From the NCBI GenBank assembly GCA_001874335.1, contig MPDE01000002.1, forward strand, positions 62,001 to 126,000: DNA of 64,000 nucleotides. Direction: 5' to 3'. Positions 13,801 through 30,288 of the stretch are shown piece by piece; the first letter of the stretch is position 1; each line of letters starts with the position of its first letter. Below the pieces are notes generated by a model. That model was not told the DNA's origin. It did no database searches and saw only the letters and a program-made list of their open reading frames with translations. A program made the position numbers and the translations under genes. The DNA is from Bacteroidetes bacterium MedPE-SWsnd-G2. Lineage in GTDB: Bacteria; Bacteroidota; Bacteroidia; Flavobacteriales; Flavobacteriaceae.

Positions 13801-14349
13801 TATATTTTGAAGCCCATCTAAGATAGAAACATCAACCTGCTCGGCGTTTAAGTTGGTAACAGTACTCCTTCTAACAAACCCGTAATTATTACTTGACGCC
13901 CATTGGTATTGAAAAGCGAGTCCAAGATTGTGATTAATCTCTTCAAAAATGATCTTATTACCAATAGAATTCTTATACAAATTTTGAGTAGTTTGATATA
14001 CACCTTGGTAACGTTTAGCGAAGGGTTCCCATAAATATGTTTTTTCAGACTTTGTTGCTAAAATTAGAGTTCTACATCCTGTACTTTTAACTGCTTCTGT
14101 AATTTTATCATCTGTGTAATACGGAAAAATTGCATTGTCACAATCTTTTCGTCCAGCAGTAACACCTCCATTACTTGAAATAAACATCCAATGATTTGAA
14201 TCACTTACAATACTCATAAAAAAAGGACGCATACTATCGCTATCCTTAATTTTATAGTATAATTCGTTGTCAATCATAAGGCGTTCTAATTTTGCCTTTT
14301 TATCAAATCCTTCAAACGGTGTTTGTCCTATGTATATTGAATTACTCAC
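10888..14349 (-). CDS. Cytosolic GH94/GH149-type beta-glucan phosphorylase
   Basis: A 1153-residue protein with no signal peptide. It has an N-terminal beta-sandwich region beginning RPFFMSIVSDSNHWMFISS, an alpha-barrel in the second half with FSRRHGDPSRPWNRF, and PEWNDANNALVGNG at 651-664. Asp655 occupies the position of the catalytic acid in GH94 phosphorylases (WND motif). The conserved tail TDPYSHTPMNKGAQQPGMTGQVKE is typical of the very long relatives. Size and context fit GH149 (beta-1,3-oligoglucan phosphorylase, releasing glucose 1-phosphate); GH161 or GH94 proper is possible. It is followed directly by GH3 and preceded by a terminator-like hairpin. Confidence 0.78.
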   Translation of the reverse strand: MSNSIYIGQTPFEGFDKKAKLERLMIDNELYYKIKDSDSMRPFFMSIVSDSNHWMFISSNGGVTAGRKDCDNAIFPYYTDDKITEAVKSTGCRTLILATKSEKTYLWEPFAKRYQGVYQTTQNLYKNSIGNKIIFEEINHNLGLAFQYQWASSNNYGFVRRSTVTNLNAEQVDVSILDGLQNILPYGLNAELQNNRSNLVDAYKRSELVKDAGLGLFTLSAIIVDRAEPSEALKTNVAWSIGLENPKYLLSNLQIENFKQGIALDTEVDVKAEKGAFFVNSKFALSQNECKKWTIVANVNQGPSDVVRLKHKLKTEGNQMEHLLQEDIKLGDQNLIGLVCASDGLQFSADVKSNSRHFSNVMFNIMRGGIFDENYKIEKSDFSEYLKHANHTVYNEAKILVSTLPEEFSLDDLKGMASNSINKDFERLCFEYLPLKFSRRHGDPSRPWNRFSINTASEIDGSKILDYEGNWRDIFQNWEALAHSYPKFINGMIYKFLNATTFEGYNPYRVTKGGFDWETIEANDPWSFIGYWGDHQLIYLLKFLEINENYFPGQLDNLLDKSIFVYANVPYKIKEYQDILANPKDTIEFDYNLHDEIVAKRIQVGADGALIFDVNGKIHHVNFLEKILATVLAKCSNFIPEAGIWLNTQRPEWNDANNALVGNGVSMVTLYYLRRFLRFFERVLSNTSHTEIEVSTELSQFFKLTLEVLVDHKMHLDKGFTNTNRKAIVDALGTVASNYREGIYQNGFSNSKLVIYLEDLQVFTHTMLQYLDQSIKVNKRTDNLYHSYNLMTVTSDDEMSISYLSEMLEGQVAVLSSGCLSPQESLEVLDALKDSALFREDQYSYLLYPNKDLKGYEVKNVVDSLKVEQSRLLQKLLEDGQNQIIERDIKGVYHFNGNFNNSDSLLKELDKLDSHTYGALIEMDRDYLLQVFEDTFNHKAFTGRSGTFFGYEGLGSIYWHMVSKLLYAVQEVVVLAESKNESKSVIGRLKDHYYEINEGIGVHKTAQLYGAFPTDPYSHTPMNKGAQQPGMTGQVKEDVLSRLGELGVSISKGRVTFNPILLREAELLKSHSRFNYNTVSGDKNVLDLNAGSLCFTYCQVPIVYSYGEVSKLSVFKNDDTVSDLEGNRLTVELSNSLFNRADEINYIQVQLVK

Positions 14350-14435: not shown

Positions 14436-15755
14436 TTAGTTGACTTTAAACGGAATATTTGCCGTTGCAGCGTGATCCTCACCATCATCCACATAAACAA
14501 AAAGTCTATATTCTCCGGTCGGTGGTGCTGTAAATTCAAGATCTCCTCCTTCTAAAGTTACTACTTTAATTTCTATCGCATCTGGTCGCTCTTCATGGTC
14601 TCCTCCATCTTGATGATCAGTACTTTCAAGAAGTAATTCCCATCTGTAGTTTAAAGGGGCCTTACCATCATCTGTAATCTTTGCACTGGCTACATAATTA
14701 TCTCCAGAGTTAAGAATTACACTTTCATAAGCAGTTTTGCTATCTAAAGTATATCCTTCAATTTGAGGTGTTCTATTTTCAGGCCAAGTGTCATTCCATA
14801 AATAATGCATTACATCTACACTTTCTGTCTCTTTACCATCTTCCAAAAAGATGCCGTACCATGTAGGCGTTCGCTCTTGCTTATTACCCCATAAAAACAC
14901 GTACGAACCAATACATTGACTTTGGTCAGATTCAATTCCGCCTTTATAACGCTTCAGGTAATTTGCAGCCTTTAATGAACTGTGCTCTTCTATTGGAGCG
15001 CCCCAAGTTGTTTTAGGCACTTCCCAATGTCCGGTTGCACCCCATTCTGTAACCATGTATGGGCCTTCCCAGCCAAATTCTCTTACCAATTTTGGTAAAT
15101 CTGGTAAATCGCCATACATCTGAAGCGAAAGAATATCTAAGTCTTCACAGCGTTCTTTTATTAAGGTTATCTCATTTTGTGAAATTCCAGCAAGCGTTGT
15201 AGTGGTTAGATGATTACTGTCTTCTTCATGTAGCATCTTAGAAATATCATTTACAGCATCCCAAACTTTTGGATTGGTATACCTTAAATTTAATTCATTA
15301 CCCACCACCCATAGTAATAAAGCTGGATGATCTTTTATAGGTAATATTTCTTGTCTAATACGCTCTAATTGTTTTGCTACTTCTTGTTCATCATTATAGT
15401 CAAATCCGTGCCTCTCGCGAGCCACTTCAATACCCATAGCAACTTTTAATCCATATTTTTGAGCTTCATCAAGAACGTCTTTAGCACTGCGCTTACCATT
15501 GTTTACGCGCCATGTTCTAAATGAATTACCTTTATGTTTAGCAAGCGCTTCTATATTACCATACTCCAATCCCGCACCATTAATATAAAAAGGTTCTCCA
15601 TCAACTTTTAATTGGTATTTACCATCAGTTTTAGATACGGTTACTTTTGAAGTAATATTTTCAGGTTGCGATTCCTCTATTTTCTTTTCATTTGTATTAC
15701 ATGAAAATAATAGGGCGACAAATAAGCTTATTAAGATTCCTTTTTTCATAGTCAT
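14436..15755 (-). CDS. Clan GH-A glycoside hydrolase, lipoprotein (GH158-like?)
   Basis: A 439-residue lipoprotein (LLFSCN lipobox, Cys19) with one TIM-barrel domain at about 45-325 and a C-terminal beta-sandwich (about 335-439). The acid/base glutamate is Glu154 in WVVGNELN and the nucleophile is Glu237 in MVTEWGA, the standard clan GH-A pair after strands 4 and 7. Families in this clan with endo-beta-1,3-glucanase activity include GH158 and GH17; the spacing and size suit GH158, but I cannot confirm the family. It overlaps the MFS stop by one base (TAATG), which implies coupled translation. ATG at 15749 is an alternative start. Confidence 0.75.
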   Translation of the reverse strand: MTMKKGILISLFVALLFSCNTNEKKIEESQPENITSKVTVSKTDGKYQLKVDGEPFYINGAGLEYGNIEALAKHKGNSFRTWRVNNGKRSAKDVLDEAQKYGLKVAMGIEVARERHGFDYNDEQEVAKQLERIRQEILPIKDHPALLLWVVGNELNLRYTNPKVWDAVNDISKMLHEEDSNHLTTTTLAGISQNEITLIKERCEDLDILSLQMYGDLPDLPKLVREFGWEGPYMVTEWGATGHWEVPKTTWGAPIEEHSSLKAANYLKRYKGGIESDQSQCIGSYVFLWGNKQERTPTWYGIFLEDGKETESVDVMHYLWNDTWPENRTPQIEGYTLDSKTAYESVILNSGDNYVASAKITDDGKAPLNYRWELLLESTDHQDGGDHEERPDAIEIKVVTLEGGDLEFTAPPTGEYRLFVYVDDGEDHAATANIPFKVN

Positions 15756-17272
15756 TAATTCTTTTTAATAAGTAATTCTTGAACTTCTTCTAATGTTTTT
15801 CCTTTTGTTTCTACCACATATTTCATCACAAATATTAAGGATAACAAAGCCATTATTGCGTATAGTGCAAATGTTAGTGTTGGCCCTAAATTAGTCAGCT
15901 CCCATGGGAAAAATTGCGTTACGGTATAACTTACCAATGAGTTGAAAAAACCAACTGCACTTATGGCTATACCTTTTATGTAGCCTGGGAATATTTCTGA
16001 AAGTAAAGTCCACATAACCGGCCCTAAAGAAATTGCGAAAGCAGCCACATACAATAAAATTGCTATTAAAACCAAAGTGGCATTTATAGATATAAAATGC
16101 TTCACTTCGTTTCTTTGAAAATTGAAATATTGTTTTTCTGTTAAATACATTTTTGAAGCATCAAAAATTTCCTTTTGAGAGCTATATGTATTTCCAGATA
16201 AAGGTAAAAGCGATTTAGAAATTTCGACATCCGAAACCTTTGCTAAAGTTTCTTCATTCACCTCATATGTTGCTTTATAGAATGCGAAGGTTGCCATTGT
16301 CAATGAAATAGTCATCGCGGCTGTACCTATAATAAGTAATGGTTTTCTACCGAGTTTGTCAATTAACCTAATGGCCACAATTGTAAACACCAAATTGGTT
16401 AAACCTACTACAATAGCTTGAAGAAAGGAAGAATCTGTGCTTCCTCCTGCTTGTTCAAATATAGTAGGGGCATAATAGAATATGGCATTAATACCGGTAA
16501 TTTGCTGGAAAAAAGCAATTCCAAAAGCTATGATTGCAATGGTTTGCATTTTATTAGAAAACAACTGACTTAGGGTACCGCTAGGTTCCTTTTTATCCAT
16601 GCCACGTTGAATTTCATCAATCGTAGCCGTCGCAAACTCATTACCTCCTATTTTTACAAGAATTTTTCTGGCGACATCTACTAAATTTAATTTTTGAATT
16701 AACCACCTCGGACTTCTTGGCACTGAGAACAATGCTATAAAATAGATAAACGCTGGTATGGCTTCTACTCCAAGCATCCATCGCCAACTTTCTTCTCCAA
16801 CATCCTTTAAAAAGTAATTTGAAAAATAGGCTACAGATATCCCTAAAACAATATTGAGTTGATTAAGAGAAACTAAACTTCCTCTTAATTTAGGTGGGGC
16901 AATTTCGGCAATGTATATCGGCGCAATGAGTATAGCACCTCCAATACCTACACCACCAATTATCCTTGCTATTACAAATGACGCATAATCTGTTGCTAAG
17001 GCCGACCAAGATGCTGAAATAGTAAACAAAATGGCTGTGACAATAAGTAATGAACGTCTTCCGTATTTATCACTTAATGGTCCTGCCATTAGATTTCCTG
17101 CCATGGCACCAAATATTACACAGCCAACTGAAAATCCTAATTCCCAATCACTCATTTCAAAATACGTACGTATTCCACCAATGGCTCCTGAAATTACAGC
17201 ACTATCAAACCCTAGTAAAAATCCACCAAGAGCAACAATAAAGCTTATATAAAGCGTATATGATTTATTCAT
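15755..17272 (-). CDS. MFS sugar porter
   Basis: This 505-residue inner-membrane transporter of the sugar-porter MFS family has twelve predicted helices. The family marks are GFDSAVISGAIGG in helix 1, DKYGRR between helices 2 and 3, PRSPRWLIQ, QQITGINAIFYYAP in helix 7, DKLGRKPLL and ETKGKTLEEV at the end. It probably moves glucose or short glucans by proton symport into the cytosol, where the phosphorylase acts. A roughly 65-residue hydrophilic insertion lies between helices 8 and 10 (VNEETLAKVSD to FNFQRNEVKH). I chose ATG at 17272; a longer frame from GTG 17290 exists. Confidence 0.92.
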   Translation of the reverse strand: MNKSYTLYISFIVALGGFLLGFDSAVISGAIGGIRTYFEMSDWELGFSVGCVIFGAMAGNLMAGPLSDKYGRRSLLIVTAILFTISASWSALATDYASFVIARIIGGVGIGGAILIAPIYIAEIAPPKLRGSLVSLNQLNIVLGISVAYFSNYFLKDVGEESWRWMLGVEAIPAFIYFIALFSVPRSPRWLIQKLNLVDVARKILVKIGGNEFATATIDEIQRGMDKKEPSGTLSQLFSNKMQTIAIIAFGIAFFQQITGINAIFYYAPTIFEQAGGSTDSSFLQAIVVGLTNLVFTIVAIRLIDKLGRKPLLIIGTAAMTISLTMATFAFYKATYEVNEETLAKVSDVEISKSLLPLSGNTYSSQKEIFDASKMYLTEKQYFNFQRNEVKHFISINATLVLIAILLYVAAFAISLGPVMWTLLSEIFPGYIKGIAISAVGFFNSLVSYTVTQFFPWELTNLGPTLTFALYAIMALLSLIFVMKYVVETKGKTLEEVQELLIKKN

Positions 17273-17340
17273 AAATAATGTGTTAGACACTGTATTTAAA
17301 CAGCGATGAGTTTAAACATAGAAGTATCCTATGTAAATAG

Positions 17341-17385: not shown

Positions 17386-19014
17386 TTACTGATATACACG
17401 TACGTAGTCAATTTCCATTGAATCTTCAACAAAAGCTGGATCAACTTCTCCACCTAAATTTCCACCCATGGCAAGATTTAATACCATAAAGAAATCGTCA
17501 TTAAATGGTGTACTTCCCGTATTTGCGAAAGTGAAATACAAGGTTTCATCTACTAATATTCTAATAGCCGATGGAGACCAATCTATAGTGTAGTTGTGAA
17601 ACTCTGTTGAAGCATTATCTACAAAGGTTTCGCTCCCATTTCCATTTCCACCAGAATTTCCTGGGTAATGTAAAGTCCCTAAAACGGTATTTAGGTTATT
17701 ACCGGTATGCTCCATAATGTCCATTTCACCACAATTTGGCCATCCAACTTCTGCAAAATTTCCGCCTAACATCCAAATTGCAGACCATGTTCCACCTTCA
17801 GATGCTACCTTAGCTCGTACTTCTACTCTTCCATAAGTGAATTCGAATAAATCTTCAGACTTTAATCGTGCAGATGTATATCCTGTTCCTTCTGCCTTAG
17901 CTGTAATAATCAATGAACCATCAGAAACGATTACATTTTCAGGGTCGTTAGTATACGTTTGTAATTCTCCATTACCCCAACCATTATCTCCTGTTCCTAT
18001 GTCGTAAGTCCATTTTGAAGCATCTGGTGCACCATCAACATCAAATTCATCAGACCAAACCAAATTGTTATAATCGGATTCAAATCCGCCATCTGCTTCT
18101 TCAGAAGTGATAATAAACCACCAGTCAAATTCTCCATTACCATCAGTAGTTTTAATCAACATTTCATTGGCCACAGATCTATCAAAAATTTGATATTGGT
18201 GATTTCCAGCTGTGTAATACCCCATAAAACCTAAACCAGAAATACTAATAGTTTCTAAACCTCCTGGGTTTATTAAAACAAATGGCTCAGAATAATCATT
18301 GTAAGGGTAATTTAAAATGTCAGCACCATCTGGTTCTTCATTATGAGGGCCTAATTCATCTATTAATCCGTCTCTTCCGAACACTGTTCCTGAAGGATCC
18401 GGATCTGGATCATCATTCACACTATTAGTGATATGTGTAAAAGTACCATCAGAACTAAAGATATATCTGTCATCATACATTCCTGAGCTTGCCTTTTCAC
18501 CCGCTCCAGCTGCATACCATTCTGTTGGAATTTGACCACCTACTGGTCCCAATCCAAAATGCCCATTAGCTTCAGATTTTATTCTCCACGTTTTTGAACC
18601 ATCACCTACTAATTTATCTACTAAATCGGCTGGTGGCTCATAGTTAGCTAAAACTTCAATCGTTAAAGTTGTAGAAGTTGTAATACCACCTGTACCAATA
18701 GCCAAAGCAGTAACTGTATATGAATTTACTCCTAATGAGGTAAACAATTTTTCTGCAACTCCTGACGGGGCCATTTGTTGTGTACCATTATGATCTAACC
18801 TATAGTTTAGAGCATTATCAGCCGACATACTAAATATTACAGATCCTGAACCATCTCCATAAGGATTGGCTTCATCGGCTCCAACAATTTCTGCGGTTAC
18901 CACAAGATTAGAAGGCGCTATAATATCTCCTACAGAGGTATCGTCATCTTGGCATGAAAATGTCATGAAAACCAAGCTCAATAACACAATGCCCATATAT
19001 TTTATATTTTTCAT
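17386..19014 (-). CDS. GH16 laminarinase, lipoprotein
   Basis: A 542-residue lipoprotein (MTFSCQ lipobox, Cys21) with a short PKD/Ig-like domain (about 30-125), a middle domain with KTWRI and ISGLGFMGYY (about 130-305), and a C-terminal GH16 jelly-roll (about 317-542). The catalytic motif is E430-M-D432-I-M-E435; other GH16 marks are LVWSDEFDVDG, TYTNDPENV, RLKSEDLFEFTYGRVEVRAK and FNDDFFMVLNLAMGG. GH16 enzymes of this type are endo-beta-1,3-glucanases. The added N-terminal domains probably hold the enzyme to the surface. It starts 34 nt after the glycan-binding lipoprotein gene. Confidence 0.93.
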   Translation of the reverse strand: MKNIKYMGIVLLSLVFMTFSCQDDDTSVGDIIAPSNLVVTAEIVGADEANPYGDGSGSVIFSMSADNALNYRLDHNGTQQMAPSGVAEKLFTSLGVNSYTVTALAIGTGGITTSTTLTIEVLANYEPPADLVDKLVGDGSKTWRIKSEANGHFGLGPVGGQIPTEWYAAGAGEKASSGMYDDRYIFSSDGTFTHITNSVNDDPDPDPSGTVFGRDGLIDELGPHNEEPDGADILNYPYNDYSEPFVLINPGGLETISISGLGFMGYYTAGNHQYQIFDRSVANEMLIKTTDGNGEFDWWFIITSEEADGGFESDYNNLVWSDEFDVDGAPDASKWTYDIGTGDNGWGNGELQTYTNDPENVIVSDGSLIITAKAEGTGYTSARLKSEDLFEFTYGRVEVRAKVASEGGTWSAIWMLGGNFAEVGWPNCGEMDIMEHTGNNLNTVLGTLHYPGNSGGNGNGSETFVDNASTEFHNYTIDWSPSAIRILVDETLYFTFANTGSTPFNDDFFMVLNLAMGGNLGGEVDPAFVEDSMEIDYVRVYQ

Positions 19015-19047: not shown

Positions 19048-21084
19048 CTAATTTGTCAATGCAAATTCATCAAAGTAATAGGTCGAATCATCTCCGGCAT
19101 TACCAAAATCAAAGAACATCACAACTCTTACATAGTCAGCAGGTGGTGCAGCACTCATGTTAAATACCAGTTCTTCCCATTGGTTAGAAACTGTATTTAC
19201 AACATCTACTTCATGTACAATACTTGTATCAGCATTTTCTAATTTTAGCTTCACAACAATCCCCGAATTTGGAGACCATGTTTTAACGCTAATACTTGAA
19301 TAGCTTGATAAATTTAAAGGCGTGTCAACTTCAAAAAATGTTCCTGCCCATACTTCGGCTGCACCTGTTTTCGTCAATTCGACTACGTTTGCAGTAGTAT
19401 TAACACCGCTCATATCTGGATTTGAAATTACTTGAGCATCAGGAATGTTTCCGAAAGTTGTAAATGCTGGTGCCTCTCCCTCAAAATCTTGAAAACCTAA
19501 GGGAGTAGAATCACCACCATTACTAGCTAACTCAATATCATCGAAATAATAAACTGAATCGTCTCCGCCATTACCGAAGTCGAAGAAGAATACTATTCTT
19601 ACGTAATCTGCTGCTGGGGCATCATTAAAGTTGAATGTAAGACTCTCCCACTCATTAGAAGTGGTTGTATTAACATCTACCTCATACACAATTGAAGTAT
19701 CTGCATTCTCTAATTTTAGCTTTACTGGAATACCAGGGTTTGGTGTCCAAATTTTAGCTTTTAAATTACTATAGGTTACAAAATCTAATGGTTCCGCAAT
19801 TTCAAAAAATGTACCTGCCCAAACTTCAGACCCAACGGCTTTAGTTAATGCACCAACATTGTTACTTGTATTTATACCAGACATATCTGGATTCACAACA
19901 ACCTCTGCATCTGGGATATTACCAAATGTTGTAAATGCTGGAGCTTCATTTTCAAAATCTTCAACCATTGCCGTTACAACTCCTCCTGGTTCTTTATAAA
20001 AGTAAAGGTTATCTATAAATACTGTACCAGCTCCATCAGGAATACCCACAAATTTAAATTGGTGAATATCGGCCATAGATAATCCTTGATCTGTGAAATC
20101 TGAAAGTGGAATATCATAACTGTTCCATTCTCCTGCTACAGGATTTAGTTGAACTAATTGTTCACCACTTGAAATACTTATAGGATAAACATCTAAAGCA
20201 TAATCTTCAGTTGCTGTCCAAACATCTATATGTAAGAACTCCATAGTTGAAGCATCAACTGTTTCTCCTATTTGAATCCCTTGATAGGTTAAATCACCAT
20301 ATTGAATCATTGCATTTCCTTCTACCTCAATTTCTGTATAAGTAGTTGATTGTCCCCAATTAGGGAAGAAATCGGTGTTAGCAATGTTTGTATAAGTGTT
20401 ACTATAAACAGATATTACATCTGTTTCAGCTCTTGCTGGTTGAGCAGGTGCTCCAGTAATTGGTTGTAAAATTTCTGTTACCAAAAATTCTTCTGCATAC
20501 TCTGTAGTTTCTATTGCTGCACTAAATGCAGTAACTGTAATGGTATAAGTTCCAGCATTTTCATAATTAAATGAAACGCCTTCGTCAATATTACCAGCTA
20601 CTGGATCTGCTCCCGTTCCGAAATCTACTTCATAAGACAATGCAAAATCTGCGGTTGCAGTTACATTTACTTGCTTAGATATCGCAGGATCATTTTCAAT
20701 TGTCACCATTAAGTTTTGAGGTGCTTGAAATGACACTTCAAGAGGTTGAGTAACTTCTGTTGTTAAACCATTTAAAGCGTAAGCCACTATGTTTAACTCG
20801 TAGGTACCTTCTTCATACGTGTGTTCTAAAACACTTCCTGGAGTCAAATCTGATTCTGCATCAGAGCCATCTCCATAATTCAAATCGTATTTAGTAACGC
20901 CATCTCCTAAAGGAATAATTGTTACCAATCCGGTGTTATCTTGTGTAACACTAACTTCTGCCGATACATTAGTAGGTGCAGAAATATCGTCTACAAAATC
21001 TAAATTGTCGTCTTCATTACAGCTAAATGCAATAAATGCTAATAGACAAAATGTTGATATATATTTTAAAATTTTCATATTCAT
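19048..21084 (-). CDS. Surface glycan-binding lipoprotein with PKD and repeated CBM-like modules
   Basis: This protein sits where SusE/SusF-type binding proteins are normally coded, 6 nt after susD. The 678 residues contain a lipobox (FSCN, Cys22), two PKD-like domains (about 35-200) and a beta-sandwich module (about 210-370) ending VFIDNLYFYKE. Two near-identical beta-sandwich modules of about 150 residues follow (about 373-523 and 530-678), each with TTFGNIPDA, EVWAGTFFE, VKLKLENADTSI and YYFDD/E. No catalytic motif is visible, so the role is glycan capture at the cell surface. The middle module recurs in the secreted protein at 28978. Confidence 0.85.
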   Translation of the reverse strand: MNMKILKYISTFCLLAFIAFSCNEDDNLDFVDDISAPTNVSAEVSVTQDNTGLVTIIPLGDGVTKYDLNYGDGSDAESDLTPGSVLEHTYEEGTYELNIVAYALNGLTTEVTQPLEVSFQAPQNLMVTIENDPAISKQVNVTATADFALSYEVDFGTGADPVAGNIDEGVSFNYENAGTYTITVTAFSAAIETTEYAEEFLVTEILQPITGAPAQPARAETDVISVYSNTYTNIANTDFFPNWGQSTTYTEIEVEGNAMIQYGDLTYQGIQIGETVDASTMEFLHIDVWTATEDYALDVYPISISSGEQLVQLNPVAGEWNSYDIPLSDFTDQGLSMADIHQFKFVGIPDGAGTVFIDNLYFYKEPGGVVTAMVEDFENEAPAFTTFGNIPDAEVVVNPDMSGINTSNNVGALTKAVGSEVWAGTFFEIAEPLDFVTYSNLKAKIWTPNPGIPVKLKLENADTSIVYEVDVNTTTSNEWESLTFNFNDAPAADYVRIVFFFDFGNGGDDSVYYFDDIELASNGGDSTPLGFQDFEGEAPAFTTFGNIPDAQVISNPDMSGVNTTANVVELTKTGAAEVWAGTFFEVDTPLNLSSYSSISVKTWSPNSGIVVKLKLENADTSIVHEVDVVNTVSNQWEELVFNMSAAPPADYVRVVMFFDFGNAGDDSTYYFDEFALTN
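19051..19967 (-). repeat. Tandem duplicated CBM-like module
   Basis: Two in-frame copies of about 450 nt (about 19510-19967 and 19051-19496) code for modules with the same order of motifs (NIPDA, NPDMSG, EVWAGTFFE, LKLENADTSI, ADYVR, FFDFGN). The high identity points to a recent duplication within the gene. Confidence 0.85.
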
Positions 21085-21090
21085 AGTTTT

Positions 21091-22551
21091 TTAGTATCCA
21101 GGATTTTGCTCCCAATTACCATTGGAAAATTGTATTTCTTCTAAAGGAATAGGAAATATTTCATGCTTGTTAGGTGTGAACCCATCTATTTGATTTCCTC
21201 TTCCTGTTCTCACTAAATCAAAGAATTGATGTCCTTCACCTACTAACTCAACTCTTCGTTCTTTATAAATGTCGCTCGTTAAATTTGCTCCTGAAGAATT
21301 TAAATCATCAAGTTCAGCACGTTCACGTACTCTATTTAGGTAGCTTAATGCTTTACTATCATCAATACCACTTCTGTTAAATGCTTCGGCAGCCATTAAT
21401 AACACATCAGCAAATCTTATCGCTCTATAGTTATTAGGATTTGTTAGGTTTTGATCTCCTAAATTTTGATCTCCTTGCCTGGCAATATATTTTCTGTTGT
21501 AAAACCCTGTATGTTCATATCCAACACCATAAGTTGCACCAGTTTGAGCCGCCCATGCTTCAATATCTAAAATGGCTACATCCTTTCTAATATCACCAGT
21601 TTCAAAAGCATCAACAACATCCTGAACAGGAACATTAAAACTAAATCCAGAATCAAAATCAGGACCTGAATAATTTCTAATACCATTAAAACCTACCGCA
21701 ACATTACCTTCACTACATTGCAAGCATCCAAAGCCTGCACCTTCTGCATCGGTATATTGAACTTCAAAAACAGATTCTATTCCATTTTCACCTGGATTTT
21801 CGAAAATAGATTCGTAGTCACTTACCAAATCATAAGGCCCGTTATTAATCAAATCATCTAAAACATTTGCCGCATCAGAAAATTTATCTTGATATAAAAA
21901 GGCTTTTCCTAACAATGCTTGAGCCGAGCCTTTAGTAGCTCTACCTACTTGAGGTGCTGTATAAGACAAATTGTCTACTGCATATTGTAAATCGGCCTCA
22001 ATTAAAGCGTAAACTTCCTCAACAGAAGATCTTGGAATTGAAGTTTCGTCTCCTAAAGCAAATCTTGCATCTCCTTTAATAGGAATTCCTCCAAACCACT
22101 TTACCAATTCAAAATGGTAATAAGCTCTTAAGAAACGTGCTTCACCAATAATTACGTTTTTACCTTCAAAATCTGTTTTATCTTGAAATTCTAAAATGTA
22201 GTTTGCTCTATTTACGCCTGCAAACATCCAGTTCCAGATATCTCTAAGATTGCTGTTTACTGGTGTATGAATCATATCATCTATTTGCTGAAAACCAATA
22301 ACATCTGTAGCGCTTTCACCACCACATAATGTATTGTTTGACGCAATTTCACCTAACATAACATTAACGTATGAAGACTGTAACAAATCGTATGCTCCAA
22401 CTAATGCTTGATAATATTCGGTTTCTGAATTAAAGAAGTTTTCAGAATCAATTGAATATGCCGGTTCTCTATCTATAAAATCATCAGTGCATGCATAAAA
22501 GCCAAATACACTAAGAATTGCAATAATATATTTATAATTTTTCATTTTCAT
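21091..22551 (-). CDS. susD: RagB/SusD-family outer-membrane lipoprotein
   Basis: A 486-residue SusD homologue with lipobox FYACTD (Cys21) and the family start DFIDREPAYSIDSENFFNSETEYYQAL. TPR-like helices carry LRAYYHFELVKWFGG and ATKGSAQALLGKAFLY, and the C-terminal end is RRVELVGEGHQFFDLVRTGR with IPLEEIQFSNGNWEQNPGY. SusD proteins form the lid over SusC and bind the glycan before import. It is followed 6 nt later by the binding-protein gene and begins 5 nt after susC, so it belongs to the core PUL operon. Confidence 0.95.
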   Translation of the reverse strand: MKMKNYKYIIAILSVFGFYACTDDFIDREPAYSIDSENFFNSETEYYQALVGAYDLLQSSYVNVMLGEIASNNTLCGGESATDVIGFQQIDDMIHTPVNSNLRDIWNWMFAGVNRANYILEFQDKTDFEGKNVIIGEARFLRAYYHFELVKWFGGIPIKGDARFALGDETSIPRSSVEEVYALIEADLQYAVDNLSYTAPQVGRATKGSAQALLGKAFLYQDKFSDAANVLDDLINNGPYDLVSDYESIFENPGENGIESVFEVQYTDAEGAGFGCLQCSEGNVAVGFNGIRNYSGPDFDSGFSFNVPVQDVVDAFETGDIRKDVAILDIEAWAAQTGATYGVGYEHTGFYNRKYIARQGDQNLGDQNLTNPNNYRAIRFADVLLMAAEAFNRSGIDDSKALSYLNRVRERAELDDLNSSGANLTSDIYKERRVELVGEGHQFFDLVRTGRGNQIDGFTPNKHEIFPIPLEEIQFSNGNWEQNPGY

Positions 22552-22556
22552 CGGGA

Positions 22557-25500
22557 TTAAAAATTAAGGTTTAAACCAAGTAAAAAGGTTCTTGGAATTG
22601 GGTAAAACCCATAGTCAATACCACTACCAATAGGTGCTCCAGAAGAAGCTCCTGGGTCGTAACCTCTATATTCTGTAAAGGTGTATAAATTGTTCACCCC
22701 TGCATAAAGTCTGAATTTTGAAATTCCGATTTTATCAACAAATTCAAATGGTAGTGAATACCCTATCTGCACATTTTGAATTCTCACATAAGATGCATCT
22801 TCTACAAAATAATTTGACAATACGTTGTTTGAAGTCGCTCCAGTTGTTACTCTTGGTACACTATTACTTGTTCCTTCACCAGTCCAACGATCTAACACAT
22901 AATTAAGTCTGTTAGCATCTGATAAGGTACGCTCGTAGTTTCTAACCATATCATTTCCTAATGACGCGAAGGTGTAACATACGAAGTCTAAGTTTTTCCA
23001 TTTGAAATTTAGGTTTAATCCCATAGTAACACTTGCAATAGGATCTCCAATATTGGTTCTATCATCGGCATCAATAACACCATCGTTATTCACATCAACG
23101 TATCTAATATCACCAGGAGCTGCATTTGCACCCAAAGCTATTTGAGATGGATGTGCATCAACCTCTGCTTGGTTTTGGAAAATTCCGTCTGTTTGATAAC
23201 CGTAGAAATATCCCATTGGTTGCCCAACTTCCATTCTTGACGGTGCCGGTTGTCCAACTCCAAAACCGCCTCCTTCTAAAAAGCCTGTGCTATTATTAAC
23301 TTCTAACACTTCATTATCTAAAGTTGTAAGGTTAAAGTTGGCTCCGAATTGGAAGTTTTCTGAAAAGTTATCTTCATAACCTACAGCAAACTCAAATCCT
23401 TGGTTTCTTACTTTACCAGCATTAACCGTTGGTGCTCCACTTCCTGGTGCTCCAATACCTATAATACCTGAAACGGGTATATTCTGAATTAAAAGATTGT
23501 CCCTTGTATTGATAAAGTAATCCATTACCACGTCTACTTTTTGATCAAACATTTTTAAATCAACACCAACATCAAATTTCTTAGCTTCCTCCCATTGTAA
23601 ATCTTCATTAGGTAAAACTCCAACAGCTTGACCCGGTGTTAATACACCATCAAACACATAAGTTGCTTCACCATTTAAAAAGCTTAAATAACCGTTGTTA
23701 CCTATTTGGTCATTACCTAAGATACCGTAACTCGCTCTTAATTTTAAGAAATTAAACGCTTTTGATTCTTGGTTAAAGAAGTCTTCGTCAGAAATCACCC
23801 AACCAGCAGTTGCAGAAGGAAAATATCCTACTTGGTTTCCTGGCCCAAAGCGTGTTGATAAATCTCGTCTTAACATAAGAGATACTAAGTATTTCTTTTT
23901 GAAATCATATTGTACACGACCAAAAAATGATAAACGTCTTTCGTCATAAGTATAAGATCCAACATCTCTAACACCTTCTTCACTTGTTCCTTCAGCAAGT
24001 GCAATATCTGCAAATTCCCAGCTGTTGTTTGGCACATCAAAACCTGTAGCAAATAGTCCGTTACCCCATTGTTTATAAACTGTTGTACCTAAAGTAGCAG
24101 TTAAATTGTGATTGTCACTAAATGTGTTTTCATACACTCCAAAGAAATCGAATGTATAATCGTTATCGTTGATAGCATTTTGAGAAACACTACTACGTGT
24201 GACATCAAATACTTTACCGCCATAGTTTACTTCTTTAGCAAAAGTTTTTCCTTCACTATTAGCTGTGTTATAACCTACACGACCAGTAAGTTTCAAATTT
24301 TTAACAATATCCCAATCCAATGCTATTGTACCATTTAATTTTCTCAAATCGTAATCATTATATGTGTTTTCAATTTGAGCCAAAGGATTTATAATTTCAA
24401 TACCAAGTCCTGGAGAGTTTGGTACTAAGGTATAGTCACCGTTTTCATCAAAAGGTGCAATTGTACTTGGCGTATTCAATGCATTAAATAATACAGAACC
24501 TAATCCACTATCGTTAATCGCATCCCTATCTATATAGGTATAAGTATTGTTTGTAGTTAGTTTAAACTTATCTGATAATTTAGCGGTTAAAGATAAACGT
24601 GCTGTACTTCTTTTAAAATCAGATTTTTTTGGAGCAATAATACCCTCTTGATACAAGTGTGATCCACTAAATGCATACGTCATTTTATCAGATCCACCAG
24701 AAACATTAATGTCATGGCTATAAATTGGCACGCCTTCATTTAATACTTCATCTTGCCAATCTGTCCCTACTCCTAATCCAGTTAAATCTGGATAAGGTAA
24801 GTCTTGTCCTCCTGCAGCATAGCTTTCGTTTAAAAGTAAAGCGTACTCAGTAGAATTTAATAAAGGAAGTGTTCGGCTGGCTTCTTGAAACCCAACATAA
24901 GTATTATATGATACTTTTGTTTTTTGTCCAAACTTTCCATTTTTAGTAGTTACCAAAACCACACCATTTGCCCCAATCGTACCGTAGATTGCTGCTTGAG
25001 CATCCTTTAAAACAGTAATTGTTTCAATGTCATTTGGATTTAAAATACTTAAATCACCTTGGTAACCATCAATAATAACTAAGGGGCCACTTTCTCCATT
25101 TGTAGAAATACCCCTAATCCTAATATCCAATCCCGCACCAGGGGCTCCAGATTGTGTTGTAACATTAACACCTGATACTGTACCTTGAAGTGCCTGTTCA
25201 ACCTTAACAGGTTTTAAGTCTTCTAAGGTTTCAACACCAACTGTTGAAACTGCTCCAGTCACTTCCCTCTTTTTCTGAGTACCGTAACCAATCACAACAA
25301 TTTCACCTAATACTGCGGCATCCTCTTCTAAGGTTACTTGTAAGGGGTTGCCGTCAACTACAGTTAGTTCCTTATCGGTATACCCCAAATAAGAAAAAAC
25401 AAGTACCGAATTAATCGGAACATCTTTTAAGATAAAGTTTCCATCAAAATCTGTAGTTGCGCCTTTAGAGGTGTTTTTAATAATAATATTAACACCTATC

Positions 25501-25610
25501 AAAGGTTCTCCAGAAACTTGATCTTTCACGTTTCCGTTTACATCTACCGATTGACCAAACGCAAAAGAGGTCAAGAGGAATAATGCAAAGGACAAAATTT
25601 TTGAATTCAT
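22557..25610 (-). CDS. susC: SusC-type TonB-dependent glycan transporter
   Basis: A 1017-residue outer-membrane receptor with signal peptide (to about residue 19, SFAFGQ), a carboxypeptidase-regulatory-like domain (about 22-95, GVNIIIKNTSKGATTDFDGNF), the plug domain with VVIGYGTQKKREVTGAVS and GLDIRIRGISTNGE, and a 22-strand barrel ending in FLLGLNLNF. It imports oligosaccharide into the periplasm using TonB energy and is the first gene of the minus-strand run. A 246-bp gap separates it from the regulator gene. SusC/SusD pairing with GH16 and GH3 points to laminarin-like beta-1,3-glucan. Confidence 0.95.
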   Translation of the reverse strand: MNSKILSFALFLLTSFAFGQSVDVNGNVKDQVSGEPLIGVNIIIKNTSKGATTDFDGNFILKDVPINSVLVFSYLGYTDKELTVVDGNPLQVTLEEDAAVLGEIVVIGYGTQKKREVTGAVSTVGVETLEDLKPVKVEQALQGTVSGVNVTTQSGAPGAGLDIRIRGISTNGESGPLVIIDGYQGDLSILNPNDIETITVLKDAQAAIYGTIGANGVVLVTTKNGKFGQKTKVSYNTYVGFQEASRTLPLLNSTEYALLLNESYAAGGQDLPYPDLTGLGVGTDWQDEVLNEGVPIYSHDINVSGGSDKMTYAFSGSHLYQEGIIAPKKSDFKRSTARLSLTAKLSDKFKLTTNNTYTYIDRDAINDSGLGSVLFNALNTPSTIAPFDENGDYTLVPNSPGLGIEIINPLAQIENTYNDYDLRKLNGTIALDWDIVKNLKLTGRVGYNTANSEGKTFAKEVNYGGKVFDVTRSSVSQNAINDNDYTFDFFGVYENTFSDNHNLTATLGTTVYKQWGNGLFATGFDVPNNSWEFADIALAEGTSEEGVRDVGSYTYDERRLSFFGRVQYDFKKKYLVSLMLRRDLSTRFGPGNQVGYFPSATAGWVISDEDFFNQESKAFNFLKLRASYGILGNDQIGNNGYLSFLNGEATYVFDGVLTPGQAVGVLPNEDLQWEEAKKFDVGVDLKMFDQKVDVVMDYFINTRDNLLIQNIPVSGIIGIGAPGSGAPTVNAGKVRNQGFEFAVGYEDNFSENFQFGANFNLTTLDNEVLEVNNSTGFLEGGGFGVGQPAPSRMEVGQPMGYFYGYQTDGIFQNQAEVDAHPSQIALGANAAPGDIRYVDVNNDGVIDADDRTNIGDPIASVTMGLNLNFKWKNLDFVCYTFASLGNDMVRNYERTLSDANRLNYVLDRWTGEGTSNSVPRVTTGATSNNVLSNYFVEDASYVRIQNVQIGYSLPFEFVDKIGISKFRLYAGVNNLYTFTEYRGYDPGASSGAPIGSGIDYGFYPIPRTFLLGLNLNF

Positions 25611-25856
25611 ATGATATTTAGTTTATATCTCTAAATTTAGAAATACTAATTATTATTTCTTCAAAAATCACCACTACAAAAAATATACATGACAAAAAAA
25701 GTGCCTATAAATTGTGAAATTCGCAATGACAATGTCATAATCACTTGAATTACTTTAACCTTAAGTAAATGTTAAATTTCAAATTTTTGCTAAAATTTCT
25801 CGATTGTATAGGTATTGTATGGTTATATTAACGCATTAACAACCAATGTATAGGAC

Positions 25857-28664
25857 TTAAATTTCCAGAATATAATTTGTTAAGCTCACCTCATGCTCCA
25901 ATTCCATCTTTTTACGCAAACGATAGCGCTTAACTTCCACACTTCTTGGTGAAATATTAAGTAAAGGAGCTATTTCTTTTGAAGACAAGTTTAGTCTGAG
26001 ATAAGCGCATAGTTTCAGGTCATTAGGTGTTAATGAAGGATGCTTATGCTTCACTTTTTTCAAAAAGTCTTTATCGGCATTATTAAAAGCTTCTTCAAAG
26101 AACTTCCAATCATCTGTATTGTTTAAATTCTTATCAATTATTTTTATAACTGGCTTAATCTTTGCCTCTGTTGACACATCTTTTAACTCTTCCTTAATAT
26201 TATGTAAAAACTCATTCTTCTTGATAAGACTCATTGTTGAAATTGCCAACTCTCTATTTTTATTCTCAATATCCTGTTGCAACTTTTCGTTTTCTATATG
26301 CATTAAGCGCTGTTTACTTTCCAACTCTAATACTTCTAATTCTCTTTTATTAGATTCAACCAACTTCTCTTTTTGTCTTTTATAATACACCTTGTATACA
26401 TTATGCATAAAAATGGAAAACAAGATGACTATCACTACATAAAAAACAATCATGGTTTTTGACAAATACCAAGGACTATCGATAGTAAAATTAAAACTAG
26501 CCATATCTGTTACCGTATCTGAATCTATTTTGGCTTGCACTAAAAACTCAAAATTACCAGAGGGTAAATTTTCATAAACTGCCGTAGGATCTGCACTCCA
26601 TGAGCTCCATCTAGATGTATAACCGTCTAGTCTATACCTATATTCTGGTTCAAATAACTGCTCGTATTCAGGAACACTAAAAAGAAAATTAAAATTATTA
26701 TGCTTACTATCAAACTCTTGTCCGTTTTCAAAACCTACCAAATCTGGTCCATCCTGAAGTGAGAAGTTTTCAACTTGCTGAATGCTTACCGTATACGATT
26801 TAGTTTTTATCTTTTTTAAATTTATAATGATATAGCCCAATGATGTACCATATAAATATGTATCAGGTCCCAAGAAGGTTATATTTTCATACCCCACCAT
26901 TTCTTCCCTTAGGTTTCGTGGTAATGAAATCCGGTTGACCTTATGCGCATCAGTTAAAATCCCTGGAGATAAATAGGTAATGCTTTTTTCACTAAACCCC
27001 CATAGTGTATTATCAATATCGTTTGATATAAGCTTTCCTGACGAATAGGTTTCACTCAAAAAAACATCAGACAGTCGTTGGTTTTTTTCAAACTTTTCAC
27101 TATCAAAATTATAGGAATACACTCCTTTTTTATTCATATAAAGCAACTCAGAATTGAACTTTATAATACTTGAATTTAATCCCTTTTCAATACTTTCATC
27201 TTCGTTCACTTCGACAACTTGAGTATAATCAGAGTTGATTTTTAATTTATAAATTCCTTTATATTCATGGTTGACAAAACAGACATCGGCAAACTCTTCA
27301 AAATAGCGCGAAGAGTGATCAAACCCTTCAATTTTATTTCTGTATGACCAATTGCCATCAACCTTTTCTAAAACATTAAGTCCGTTATAATTACCTTGTA
27401 GGATTAAATTCGGATTATTTTGAGCTGGTTTTAAACTCCATGTGCCTTCTACATTTGATATTTTAGTTACCACATCCAAATCAACAGTAAAAGTCCCCAG
27501 GTTATGACCACAGAACAAGGTATCATCTAACACATCTAAAGTCCACACCTGACCTTTTGTGCCGTCAATAATTTGAAATTTTGAATTTGTATCCTGCAAC
27601 GGTTTATAAAACAAACCTTGGTTTGTACCAATATATAAGTGCTCATTAAAAACGGCTGATGCATACACCGTACCAACTTTACCTTTATCATCATTATAAA
27701 TACTAAATGCCGATTTCACGTTTACACAGTTAATCCCATTATCAAGAGCCAGCCAAACATTACCGATTTCATCTTCAAACAGATCTAATACTGTATTATT
27801 GTTAAGACCGTCTTCTTGATTAATAGACTCCAATAATTCACCATTTGCACTAATATGAATAATCCCATTAGATATTGTACCTAACATTAAAGATTTATCG
27901 CGTAATTGAATACAGCTATATACAGAAACACCTGTTAAATCAACTGAATCAACGACCTCCCAAGGTATTAACTCATTATTTGAAAATTTATACAATCCCT
28001 CGTTTTGAGTGACAAAAACGGGTTCGTTCAAATGTTCGAAAATATGGACAACAATATTTTCTTTTACTAATGGATTGTCACTTACTAAACTAGGAATTCC
28101 ATTTACTATTTTATAAATCCCATCATTAGCACGTTGGAAATAAATAACATTATTCACCGCGTACATTTTGGTAAAAAGGGTGTGTCCTTCAATAATTTTA
28201 AAAGCTTCTGATTTTGTATTATATAAATAAATGCGGTTTAAAGACTGGAATAATATCCAATCTTCAATAGCAATTATTTTCCAAAAATGCTCGTCTTCTA
28301 TTAAGGGTTGTTTTAATTTATCTGAAAGGGAAGAATATTCTAAAGTTCCGAGATTGTTTCTTTCCCAAAACCCGAATTCCATATAACAACCTGTATAAAT
28401 TTTATCCTCAGTGACCTCTACTGCACGAATTATAGTCTCGTTAGGTGAATTATACATGGTCCAATTAGCCCCATTATACTCCAGTAAACCTCTATTGTTT
28501 GCAACATAGATATGCTGATTTTCATCTTGTGCAATATTCCAATTCTGGTTATCTGCGTTGTATTGTTTTGGCGTAAATGTGAGAATTGGAGGTAATTCTT
28601 GAGAATTTCCATTTGAAATAGAAACAAGAATAAATAGTAGGGCTAGTAATTTATTTGTTTTCAA
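25857..28664 (-). CDS. Triple-tyrosine/LuxR-type membrane regulator of the glucan locus
   Basis: About 935 residues: signal peptide, a long beta-propeller-like sensor (about 25-650; IGNVWLALDNGIN, ASAVFNEHLYIGTNQGLFY), a Y_Y_Y domain (about 658-720), one transmembrane helix (about 736-757), a coiled coil rich in E/K, and a LuxR-type helix-turn-helix at the end (LTPNDLKLCAYLRLNLSSKEIAPLLNISPRSVEVKR). There is no histidine kinase or receiver domain, so it joins outside sensing directly to DNA binding. I prefer TTG at 28664, which puts a clean signal peptide at the N-terminus; an ATG at 28730 would add 22 residues. It lies directly upstream of susC, the usual position of a PUL regulator. Confidence 0.88.
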   Translation of the reverse strand: MKTNKLLALLFILVSISNGNSQELPPILTFTPKQYNADNQNWNIAQDENQHIYVANNRGLLEYNGANWTMYNSPNETIIRAVEVTEDKIYTGCYMEFGFWERNNLGTLEYSSLSDKLKQPLIEDEHFWKIIAIEDWILFQSLNRIYLYNTKSEAFKIIEGHTLFTKMYAVNNVIYFQRANDGIYKIVNGIPSLVSDNPLVKENIVVHIFEHLNEPVFVTQNEGLYKFSNNELIPWEVVDSVDLTGVSVYSCIQLRDKSLMLGTISNGIIHISANGELLESINQEDGLNNNTVLDLFEDEIGNVWLALDNGINCVNVKSAFSIYNDDKGKVGTVYASAVFNEHLYIGTNQGLFYKPLQDTNSKFQIIDGTKGQVWTLDVLDDTLFCGHNLGTFTVDLDVVTKISNVEGTWSLKPAQNNPNLILQGNYNGLNVLEKVDGNWSYRNKIEGFDHSSRYFEEFADVCFVNHEYKGIYKLKINSDYTQVVEVNEDESIEKGLNSSIIKFNSELLYMNKKGVYSYNFDSEKFEKNQRLSDVFLSETYSSGKLISNDIDNTLWGFSEKSITYLSPGILTDAHKVNRISLPRNLREEMVGYENITFLGPDTYLYGTSLGYIIINLKKIKTKSYTVSIQQVENFSLQDGPDLVGFENGQEFDSKHNNFNFLFSVPEYEQLFEPEYRYRLDGYTSRWSSWSADPTAVYENLPSGNFEFLVQAKIDSDTVTDMASFNFTIDSPWYLSKTMIVFYVVIVILFSIFMHNVYKVYYKRQKEKLVESNKRELEVLELESKQRLMHIENEKLQQDIENKNRELAISTMSLIKKNEFLHNIKEELKDVSTEAKIKPVIKIIDKNLNNTDDWKFFEEAFNNADKDFLKKVKHKHPSLTPNDLKLCAYLRLNLSSKEIAPLLNISPRSVEVKRYRLRKKMELEHEVSLTNYILEI

Positions 28665-28977
28665 GCGAGTTAGATTAGAATAGTTGTGCGCAATAATACA
28701 ATTATTTCCTTTTCTTACAATATAGAGCATTATTACTCTTCTAATTTAAGAGATTTTTACCACAACATCACCACATCAAATTATATTTTTTGAAAATTTT
28801 TTAATATCATAACCCTAATAATCCTATTCATTTAAGGCGCTTTAGCTCAAACAAAACACTGAACATCTCTAAACAAGAACACTACATGGTGTGAAGTATA
28901 GTTTTTGTATAGGGTATTAAAATTATAACGCTTCTTTTTTCCAATATCTTGAAGCAACTATCTAAAAACTATATACA

Positions 28978-30288
28978 ATGAAAAAAATTACACTTTTAAC
29001 ACTTCTATTAATTCCGTTTATTGGAATGAGCCAAAATGCACCAATTGATTTTGAACCAGCTGGTTTTGGTGCCTCTTGGACATGGACAGTTTTTGAGAAC
29101 GACACCGACCCAGCATTAGAAATTGTGGCAAACCCAGACCCTTCTGGAGACAATACTTCTTCTACTGTTGCAAAATTTACGGCATTAGTAGGTGGAAACC
29201 CATGGGCAGGTTGTGAATCACTTCACGGTGCTGATATTGGTGGATTTTCTTTTGATGCTTCTAATACCACTGTAAAAATGATGGTTTACAAAACCGTAAT
29301 TAGTGACGTAGGGATCAAATTTGCCGAAGTAAACGGAGAAGCACAACCAGAAATTAAAGTCGCAAACACATTGGTAAATCAATGGGAGGAACTCACCTTT
29401 GATCTTTCTGGAAGTATTGGCACTGGAATTACAGGAATTAACGATCAGATTATTATTTTTCCTGATTTTGATTTAGGAGGAAGAACTCAAGACAACATTA
29501 TCTATTTTGACAACATCACCTTTTCTGCTCAAGCAGCCGAAGAGGTACCGTTAGTTGCTGCTCCTACTCCAACAATCGACTCAGAAGATGTGATTTCTGT
29601 ATTCAACACAAACAATCCTTATACAGATATTACTGGTGTAGAATACAATCCGTTTTGGGGTCAAGGTACTGTTGCCACACAAATTGACATTGCAGGAAAC
29701 AACACCTTAAAATATGCAAACTTAAATTACCAAGGAACAGACTTTTCTGGTAACACCCAAGATGTAAATGCTATGAATTATATTCACGTAGACTATTGGA
29801 CCTCTGGCGCAACTGCTCTAAGTTTCTATCTTATAAACGCCACTACTGGTGGTGCTGGAGAAAAGTTTTATGACTTTGCTTTAGAAGACGGTATTACAAC
29901 TGGTGAATGGGTAAGTACAGATATTCCATTAACCCATTTTACGAATCAAGGATTTAGCCTAGATGATGTTATGCAATTTAAGGTTGTAGGAAACGGAACG
30001 GTTTATTTGGACAATTTATATTTCTCAACTGTAACCTTATCTGTAGAAGAAAACCAATTGGTAAACACTGAAGTGTTCCCTAATCCAAGTTCTAATTTCT
30101 GGACTATTAAAACAACGGCACCAATTGTGTCAGTCCAACTATACAATGTTTTAGGTAAACTCATTACAGATTCAAAACCAAACTCAACAGAAGTGCAATT
30201 GGAAGCTCAAGGTTTCTCAAAAGGTATTTATTTTGCTCATGTTAAAACTGAGCAAGGCACTAAAATTTTAAAATTAATTCGCAATTAA
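28978..30288 (+). CDS. Secreted carbohydrate-binding protein with T9SS sorting domain
   Basis: A 436-residue exported protein with signal peptide (MKKITLLTLLLIPFIGMSQ). A first beta-sandwich at about 20-185 resembles the duplicated modules of the glycan-binding lipoprotein (NPDPSGDNTSS, NQWEELTFDLS, IIYFDNITF). A second at about 195-352 resembles its middle module (DVISVFNTN, FWGQGT, LNYQGTDFSG, VYLDNLYFS). The C-terminal type IX sorting domain covers about 360-436 (VFPNPSSNFWTIKT to KILKLIRN). No catalytic residues are visible. It is read away from the regulator gene and probably helps bind glucan outside the cell. Confidence 0.85.
   Translation: MKKITLLTLLLIPFIGMSQNAPIDFEPAGFGASWTWTVFENDTDPALEIVANPDPSGDNTSSTVAKFTALVGGNPWAGCESLHGADIGGFSFDASNTTVKMMVYKTVISDVGIKFAEVNGEAQPEIKVANTLVNQWEELTFDLSGSIGTGITGINDQIIIFPDFDLGGRTQDNIIYFDNITFSAQAAEEVPLVAAPTPTIDSEDVISVFNTNNPYTDITGVEYNPFWGQGTVATQIDIAGNNTLKYANLNYQGTDFSGNTQDVNAMNYIHVDYWTSGATALSFYLINATTGGAGEKFYDFALEDGITTGEWVSTDIPLTHFTNQGFSLDDVMQFKVVGNGTVYLDNLYFSTVTLSVEENQLVNTEVFPNPSSNFWTIKTTAPIVSVQLYNVLGKLITDSKPNSTEVQLEAQGFSKGIYFAHVKTEQGTKILKLIRN

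Follow-up and report, generated by a model that had tools for sequence, protein, structure and literature searches.

Why would a single sugar utilization locus encode the same two non-catalytic modules on two different proteins, one anchored at the cell surface and one exported? We address this question for a 64,000-nucleotide stretch of DNA (hereafter the window; positions 62,001–126,000 of contig MPDE01000002.1) from the 3.04-Mb draft genome (3,035,083 bases) of the flavobacterium Bacteroidetes bacterium MedPE-SWsnd-G2. The two proteins are a 678-residue surface glycan-binding lipoprotein in SusE position (19048–21084, minus strand) and a 436-residue protein predicted to be exported by the type IX secretion system (T9SS; 28978–30288, plus strand). 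As an answer we propose, with a probability of about three in four for the explanation as a whole, that the locus serves the use of laminarin and that the anchored and the exported protein, both assembled from modules that we call A and B, are controlled together. What is new here is a conserved element, TGTATRTTTTTTGTWGNGG, before many SusC genes of loci with A and B modules; module B itself is already known.

Two enzyme-free proteins built from modules A and B

The lipoprotein gene starts 6 bp after SusD on the same strand, its product carries a predicted lipobox cysteine (Cys22, assigned by eye), and a Pfam scan finds no enzyme domain in it; by its position and content we class it as a surface glycan-binding protein (SGBP). 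Its architecture is PKD-PKD-A-B-B. The two PKD-like domains (residues 36–117, 20734–20979, and residues 121–202, 20479–20724) score 87 and 88 bits against a home-made profile from the lipoprotein and its relatives, and the Pfam PKD_4 match stays below the cut-off. They are followed by module A (residues 205–368, 19981–20472), a predicted β-sandwich resembling carbohydrate-binding module (CBM) families 11 and 30, and by two copies of module B, of the laminarin-binding X584 type (residues 372–523, 19516–19971, and residues 529–678, 19051–19500; all on the minus strand). The exported protein consists of a signal peptide (by eye), module B (residues 20–186, 29035–29535), module A (residues 188–355, 29539–30042) and a C-terminal T9SS type A sorting domain (residues 366–434, 30073–30279; all on the plus strand), again without an enzyme domain. 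The sorting domain exceeds the cut-offs of both PF18962 (47.2 bits versus 27) and TIGR04183 (46.9 versus 23), and the genome itself encodes the T9SS translocon protein SprA (2782 bits), by which the presence of the system was judged. The protein is therefore a predicted type A T9SS cargo, as judged by signal peptide, sorting domain and SprA. An earlier note on this DNA had claimed that the locus makes one anchored and one T9SS-exported form, and with a SusD-adjacent lipoprotein and a sorting domain above both cut-offs this claim stands.

The same note held that the middle module of the lipoprotein recurs in the exported protein and that the tandem module matches its first domain; both likenesses are borne out, and all of the sequence strings that it quoted are found in the two translations. 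In BLASTP the A modules of the two proteins are 41% identical (E 1e-35), and the exported B module is 31% identical to the first (E 4e-14) and 29% identical to the second copy (E 2e-13) in the lipoprotein, which are themselves 67% identical. Pairs of like modules score 19.5 to 89 standard deviations above the shuffled mean, and the six A/B cross pairs lie at −0.3 to 1.1 standard deviations (300 shuffles per pair). Further matches of the exported protein in its own genome fall on the sorting tail, except for a 451-residue open reading frame (ORF) with a T9SS tail (L006, G000:C13:208426-209091) that aligns weakly to module A plus tail (E 4e-9, query residues 212–436).

Among 299 Flavobacteriaceae genomes searched at E 1e-5, 135 have A and 108 have B. 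We examined 100 stretches of at most 20 kb plus the window: 20 around the best B matches of the exported protein, 20 around its best A matches, and 60 from further genomes among the matches listed for A and B. Because they were picked from match listings and for likeness to the exported A and B, these stretches are not a random sample. The 63 A and 85 B copies in the window and the first 40 stretches are all unambiguous, each favoring one profile over the other by 10 bits or more; the A and B labels follow this exclusive assignment, from which later profiles were built. The cross-pair shuffles and the exclusive scores rule out one single module family, and at the profile level A and B are distantly related (hhalign P 2.5e-8, 140 columns). 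The pairing of anchored and exported forms is not private to the window: T9SS-tailed A/B proteins number 28 in 23 of the 101 stretches, a count biased by the 20 stretches chosen for likeness to exported B and the 20 chosen for likeness to exported A.

With two families present, the earlier note's proposal of a probably new β-1,3-glucan-binding module divides: newness fails for B and may hold for A. A profile of 59 B modules matches PDB entry 8QX6, titled "Novel laminarin-binding CBM X584", at E 6.6e-31, the next PDB match being a chain named laminarinase 16A (1GUI, E 9e-5), and 8QX6 scores 109 bits against the B profile and nothing against the A profile. The structure prediction that the note had called for points the same way: the AlphaFold2 model of the first B copy in the lipoprotein (predicted local distance difference test, pLDDT, 97.7) has the fold of 8QX6, with Z 17.6 and a root-mean-square deviation of 2.3 over 142 residues (runner-up entry Z 14.4). 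As judged by profile and model, module B is a member of the X584 laminarin-binding family of 8QX6, so already described, and laminarin binding by the B modules of the window is predicted from this membership. Sequence family and fold are thus shared with the X584 CBM, from which the window B differs in being only 32% identical, in being mixed with A, and in occurring once on a T9SS-exported protein.

We take X584 to be CBM102 of Christiangramia forsetii, for which Zuehlke et al. (2024) reportedly described four laminarin-binding CBM102 modules in the SGBP and a CBM103 on the GH16 (glycoside hydrolase family 16) enzyme. Named genomes matched by the 8QX6 sequence are four of Gramella/Christiangramia (73–81% identity), one of Leeuwenhoekiella parthenopeia (56%) and one of Gillisia mitskevichiae (71%). 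Three of these six (L109–L111, Gramella/Christiangramia) have a PKD-PKD-B-B-B-B protein in SusE position, the same four-B string after two PKD domains as reportedly occurs in C. forsetii, and three have PKD-PKD-B-B-B instead; in all six the protein's gene is followed by one for PKD-GH16. B modules also occur within enzymes, namely inside a split GH16 domain of PKD-GH16 proteins of 694–703 residues (141–145 bits; residues 391–531 in L131, 400–541 in L123, 396–536 in L147 and 392–535 in L153). This fits a Maribacter GH16_3 laminarinase that, according to an excerpt of PMC11345257, is interrupted by a "domain of unknown function", which would then be an X584-type CBM.

Module A may be unassigned to any CBM family, as judged by Pfam and by PDB comparison, in which it has no close solved relative. 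Its AlphaFold2 model (pLDDT 96.8) is a β-sandwich with CBM30 (Z 13.6) and CBM11 (Z 13.1–13.3) as the nearest folds over about 140 residues, tied with entries within 1 Z of them such as CBM8 and a xanthanase module; Foldseek places CBM11 first (E 1.1e-6). The fold is common to CBM11 of Clostridium thermocellum Lic26A-Cel5E (1V0A/6R31), to CBM30 and to module A, which differs from both in an identity of 12–13% and, in the window, in lacking a Pfam CBM_11 match (PF03425 has none in either window protein at E 1). Membership of A in CBM11 was rejected, with no match over the sequence cut-off; an A protein of L168, for instance, reaches 22.4 bits against a cut-off of 27. No Pfam CBM is over the cut-off in the window A modules, where CIA30 is the sole Pfam pass, marginal for the whole lipoprotein (25.3 bits versus 24), in the A region and with no single stretch passing alone; no NCBIfam model is over its cut-off for the lipoprotein.

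At each of the positions Tyr27, Trp39, Tyr63 and Trp85 (numbered by the first row), 45–47 of 48 A modules have an aromatic residue, and His81 is kept in 46. Together, the fold, the conserved aromatics and the free exchange with B in the same loci suggest that A is a second β-1,3-glucan-binding module. Above all, A and B freely stand in for each other at one position of a single locus type, which suggests that they bind the same sugar: among 75 tail-less A/B proteins directly after SusD in the 101 stretches, 24 carry A only, 20 B only and 31 both. Alternatively, A could be a spacer or bind another glycan (mixed-linkage or β-1,4-glucan), in which case the mixture of A and B would broaden specificity rather than add avidity for laminarin. 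CBM11 and CBM30 bind mixed-linkage or β-1,4-glucan (for CBM11 this is also in a PDB entry title), and their folds, among several tied, rank above 8QX6, which is 29th for the A model (Z 11.6). However, the 24 A-only proteins all lie in stretches with GH16, and the four aromatic positions are unlike a bare spacer; we consider this alternative unlikely, if worth keeping in mind.

The laminarin locus and its conserved upstream element

On the minus strand the locus reads GH3 glucosidase (8598–10880; Pfam), GH149 β-1,3-glucan phosphorylase (10888–14349; NCBIfam equivalog, 1724 bits versus a cut-off of 1150), a protein with a GH2-type TIM barrel match (14436–15755; Pfam), a major facilitator superfamily (MFS) sugar porter (15755–17290; TIGR00879), a GH16 lipoprotein (17386–19014), the A/B lipoprotein, a SusD-like protein (21091–22551; Pfam), a SusC-like TonB-dependent transporter (22557–25610; TIGR04056, 867 bits) and a membrane regulator (25857–28730; Pfam, NCBIfam) with a Y_Y_Y sensor, a weak propeller match and a LuxR-type helix-turn-helix. 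The gene of the exported protein lies at the edge of this locus on the plus strand, divergent from the regulator gene. The GH16 lipoprotein has an N-terminal PKD-like domain and, between PKD and GH16, an unnamed middle domain (about residues 125–310) for which the Pfam scan gives no match; we presume that it may be CBM103. L097, L103 and L156 also carry the middle domain on a PKD-X protein of its own, about 295 residues long.

The β-1,3-glucan context assumed in the earlier note is confirmed by GH149, GH16 and GH3 in the same gene run. With these enzymes beside SusC and SusD, the locus is, on its gene content, a laminarin (β-1,3-glucan) utilization locus, and its host appears to feed on this algal storage sugar. 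Variant A laminarin polysaccharide utilization loci (PULs) of North Sea Flavobacteriia likewise have GH3 and GH16 beside SusC/D, according to an excerpt of PMC6298971; compared with that description, the window also holds GH149 and a T9SS-secreted CBM protein. The window lipoprotein can be likened to SusE/F-position SGBPs such as BfSGBP-B of Bacteroides fluxus, a laminarin-binding surface protein from a locus with GH16_3 (excerpt of PMC11345257), on the basis of that published description.

An identical string was first spotted by eye upstream of SusC and of the exported-protein gene. The element before SusC (GTATATTTTTTGTAGTGG; 25671–25688, minus strand) lies 60 bp and that before the exported-protein gene (GTATAGTTTTTGTATAGG; 28896–28913, plus strand) 64 bp from the start codon. 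The window holds just two perfect copies of the string TATAKTTTTTGTA. With one mismatch allowed, the string is found upstream of 37 of 70 SusC genes in the stretches with A or B, against 0.8 for shuffled sequences. The consensus of the aligned sites, TGTATRTTTTTTGTWGNGG, contains two TGTA boxes 11 bp apart (TGTA-N7-TGTA). An exact looser pattern, GTATRNTTTTTGTWNNGG, is found just twice in the whole genome, before SusC and before the exported-protein gene; within one mismatch, six of the eight element matches in the genome are at noise level, the reversed control giving 12.

We scored upstream regions with a weight matrix from the SusC sites of 49 stretches, the window being left out. The SusC site of the window scores 28.8 bits, and a threshold of 14 bits is reached by 57 of 73 SusC genes overall, 47 of 50 in the training stretches and 10 of 23 outside them (the window's included). 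The same threshold is reached upstream of 6 of 28 T9SS A/B genes, 4 of 16 other T9SS-tailed genes, 2 of 110 tail-less A/B genes and 2 of 60 regulators, and of none of the SusD (80), GH16 (108), GH3 (45), GH149 (23), MFS (15), GH2-like (9) and PKD-only (23) genes; all but the T9SS classes pooled, this amounts to 4 of 473 upstream regions. With transcription units called by simple distance, SusC is the head gene for 11 of the 28 T9SS A/B ORFs, and for six of these 11 its upstream region is cut off or short. The head gene of the other 17 has a site of at least 10 bits in 14 cases and of at least 14 bits in 10, with none in L080, L082 and L090.

Since the element precedes both SusC and the exported-protein gene, the exported protein very probably belongs to the laminarin regulon; the shared element strongly suggests that the two genes are switched on together, and the LuxR-type membrane regulator is the probable reader. 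One could instead see the exported protein as a matrix or adhesion protein that is merely next door to the laminarin system. Its gene is on the other strand, and 17 of the 28 T9SS A/B ORFs lie outside a SusC-headed run; but the element shared with SusC, and the presence of GH16, GH3 or GH149 in 18 of the 23 stretches with a T9SS form, make this improbable.

Another view would take the element for a promoter box in general use in the family, not for a laminarin-specific operator. A TTTG box in A+T-rich sequence is typical of Bacteroidota promoters, and the element mostly lies about 75–125 bp before annotated starts. As a control we hand-picked 20 SusC/D stretches from SusD places in six genomes of the same family; they contain SusC in 20, the SusD probe in 16, and GH3 and a regulator homologue in one (L192), with GH16 in none of 20 and A or B in none of 20. 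None of the 39 ORFs of over 850 residues in these SusC-holding stretches reaches 14 bits, and the strict pattern is found in 39 of 149 family genomes, versus one for the reversed control. The absence of sites before the 80 SusD and 45 GH3 genes weighs less here, because such genes are often inside operons. On balance, we give a general promoter box little credence.

Among known operators, those of SusR-like regulators of Bacteroides resemble the window element, as far as an excerpt of PMC3878776 describes them, in that the regulator stands beside a SusC/D locus and the half-sites are direct repeats. Their boxes are 67 or 77 bp apart, compared with 11 bp in the Flavobacteriaceae element, which is of another build because the repeat spacing differs. 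Among the papers listed by a literature search, none is, as judged by title and abstract start, about a laminarin operator in Flavobacteriia.

Recurrence and history of the anchored and exported forms

The stretches of the 75 SusE-position proteins hold GH16 in 73, in contrast to none of the 20 control stretches, a regulator homologue in 61, GH3 in 41 and GH149 in 18, and the exact PKD-PKD-A-B-B architecture of the window recurs in eight other stretches. The two without GH16 are L146, which is cut by a contig end, and L101, where the protein reads B-A-A-B-A-A-B-A and the four scanned downstream neighbors are dehydrogenase and efflux genes. Within the T9SS A/B ORFs, Pfam finds an enzyme domain in one (GH16, L172), and extra binding, Ig-like or odd weak matches in a few. 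A second cluster near the main locus was seen in L130, L134, L149, L152, L154 and L159, composed of a single-A protein of about 475–507 residues, a GH16 protein of 281–312 residues and a PKD-B protein; in a similar cluster (L132) the single-A protein has Big_2 over the cut-off and a CBM30 match below it.

Module trees were built by quick IQ-TREE runs and topologies compared by the approximately unbiased (AU) test. The exported B module of the window groups with six further modules (SH-aLRT 96), all of them from lipoproteins. Well-supported branches force at least seven changes of the T9SS label among B modules and only one among A, implying that B moved repeatedly between anchored and exported proteins. 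A single origin of all T9SS-borne B modules is ruled out (AU p 1e-72); for A it is not rejected (p 0.19). That the two window proteins are recent duplicates within the locus might be supposed from the occurrence of the same two modules 8 kb apart and from the A modules, for which a sister relationship is not rejected (AU p 0.055). For B, however, one clade of the three window modules, as expected from local duplication, is rejected (AU p 1.5e-58), and the exported B is up to 73% identical to a lipoprotein B of another genus, compared with 31% to that of its neighbor. A recent local duplication is rejected for B and undecided for A, and as the origin of the two proteins it is highly improbable.

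A further T9SS-tailed family of 286–307 residues was observed in L074, L076, L077, L078, L083, L087, L088, L115, L141, L151, L160 and L168. Of the 13 tail-only ORFs in this size range, 12 belong to it. Its members mostly share 31–88% identity outside the tail and often adjoin T9SS B proteins; in three members scanned only the tail is over the Pfam cut-off. The control element (12.7–28.7 bits) precedes the gene in L083, L087, L088, L115 and L168, and the family is possibly a second export of the laminarin regulon.

Proposed tethered and exported arms for laminarin capture

Based on these observations, the following course of events seems most likely. On sensing laminarin fragments, the regulator would turn on SusC/D together with both binding proteins, the anchored A/B string and the secreted B-A protein. 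The string would collect laminarin beside the SusC/SusD port, making it available to the GH16 enzyme, and T9SS would deliver the secreted enzyme-free protein to the outer face or the medium, where it might catch or retain laminarin away from the port. The secreted protein may bind laminarin either at the cell's outer surface or in the milieu around the cell.

Several findings weigh against this explanation. First, module A has only weak links by sequence to any CBM: the best PDB matches of a profile of 48 A modules are CBM11 chains at E about 0.004 (1V0A, 0.0045), and Pfam CBM_11 matches one of the 48 (E 4.7e-5). Second, the element is not universal, because no site of 14 bits or more precedes 13 of the 23 SusC genes that were not part of the training, and the site before the exported-protein gene scores 15.1 bits, compared with a median of 24.4 for SusC sites, in a pair first spotted by eye. 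Third, 5 of the 23 stretches with a T9SS form hold none of GH16, GH3 and GH149. Finally, the system does not need the secreted form, because a T9SS A/B ORF stands beside the SusE-position A/B protein in only 11 of 75 stretches (6 of 10 B-picked, 1 of 16 A-picked, 3 of 48 of the less biased rest, plus the window).

A broader reading joins these parts: A would found a laminarin-binding CBM family that is as yet unassigned and exchangeable for X584/CBM102, and TGTATRTTTTTTGTWGNGG (TGTA-N7-TGTA) would mark a laminarin regulon, present in many Flavobacteriaceae, that co-induces SusC/D-anchored and T9SS-exported enzyme-free capture arms plus a second exported family of about 290 residues. We put this forward tentatively, at somewhat less than even odds.

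Laminarin is among the largest sugar pools in the sea. According to an excerpt of PMC11345257, it accounts for over 10% of the carbon dioxide fixed each year. If the proposed explanation is true, laminarin would be captured by a tethered and an exported set of binding proteins under common control, an arrangement absent from the standard Sus picture. The element provides a sequence handle for finding members of the laminarin regulon, and module A is a second candidate binding module, present in 135 of the 299 Flavobacteriaceae genomes searched.

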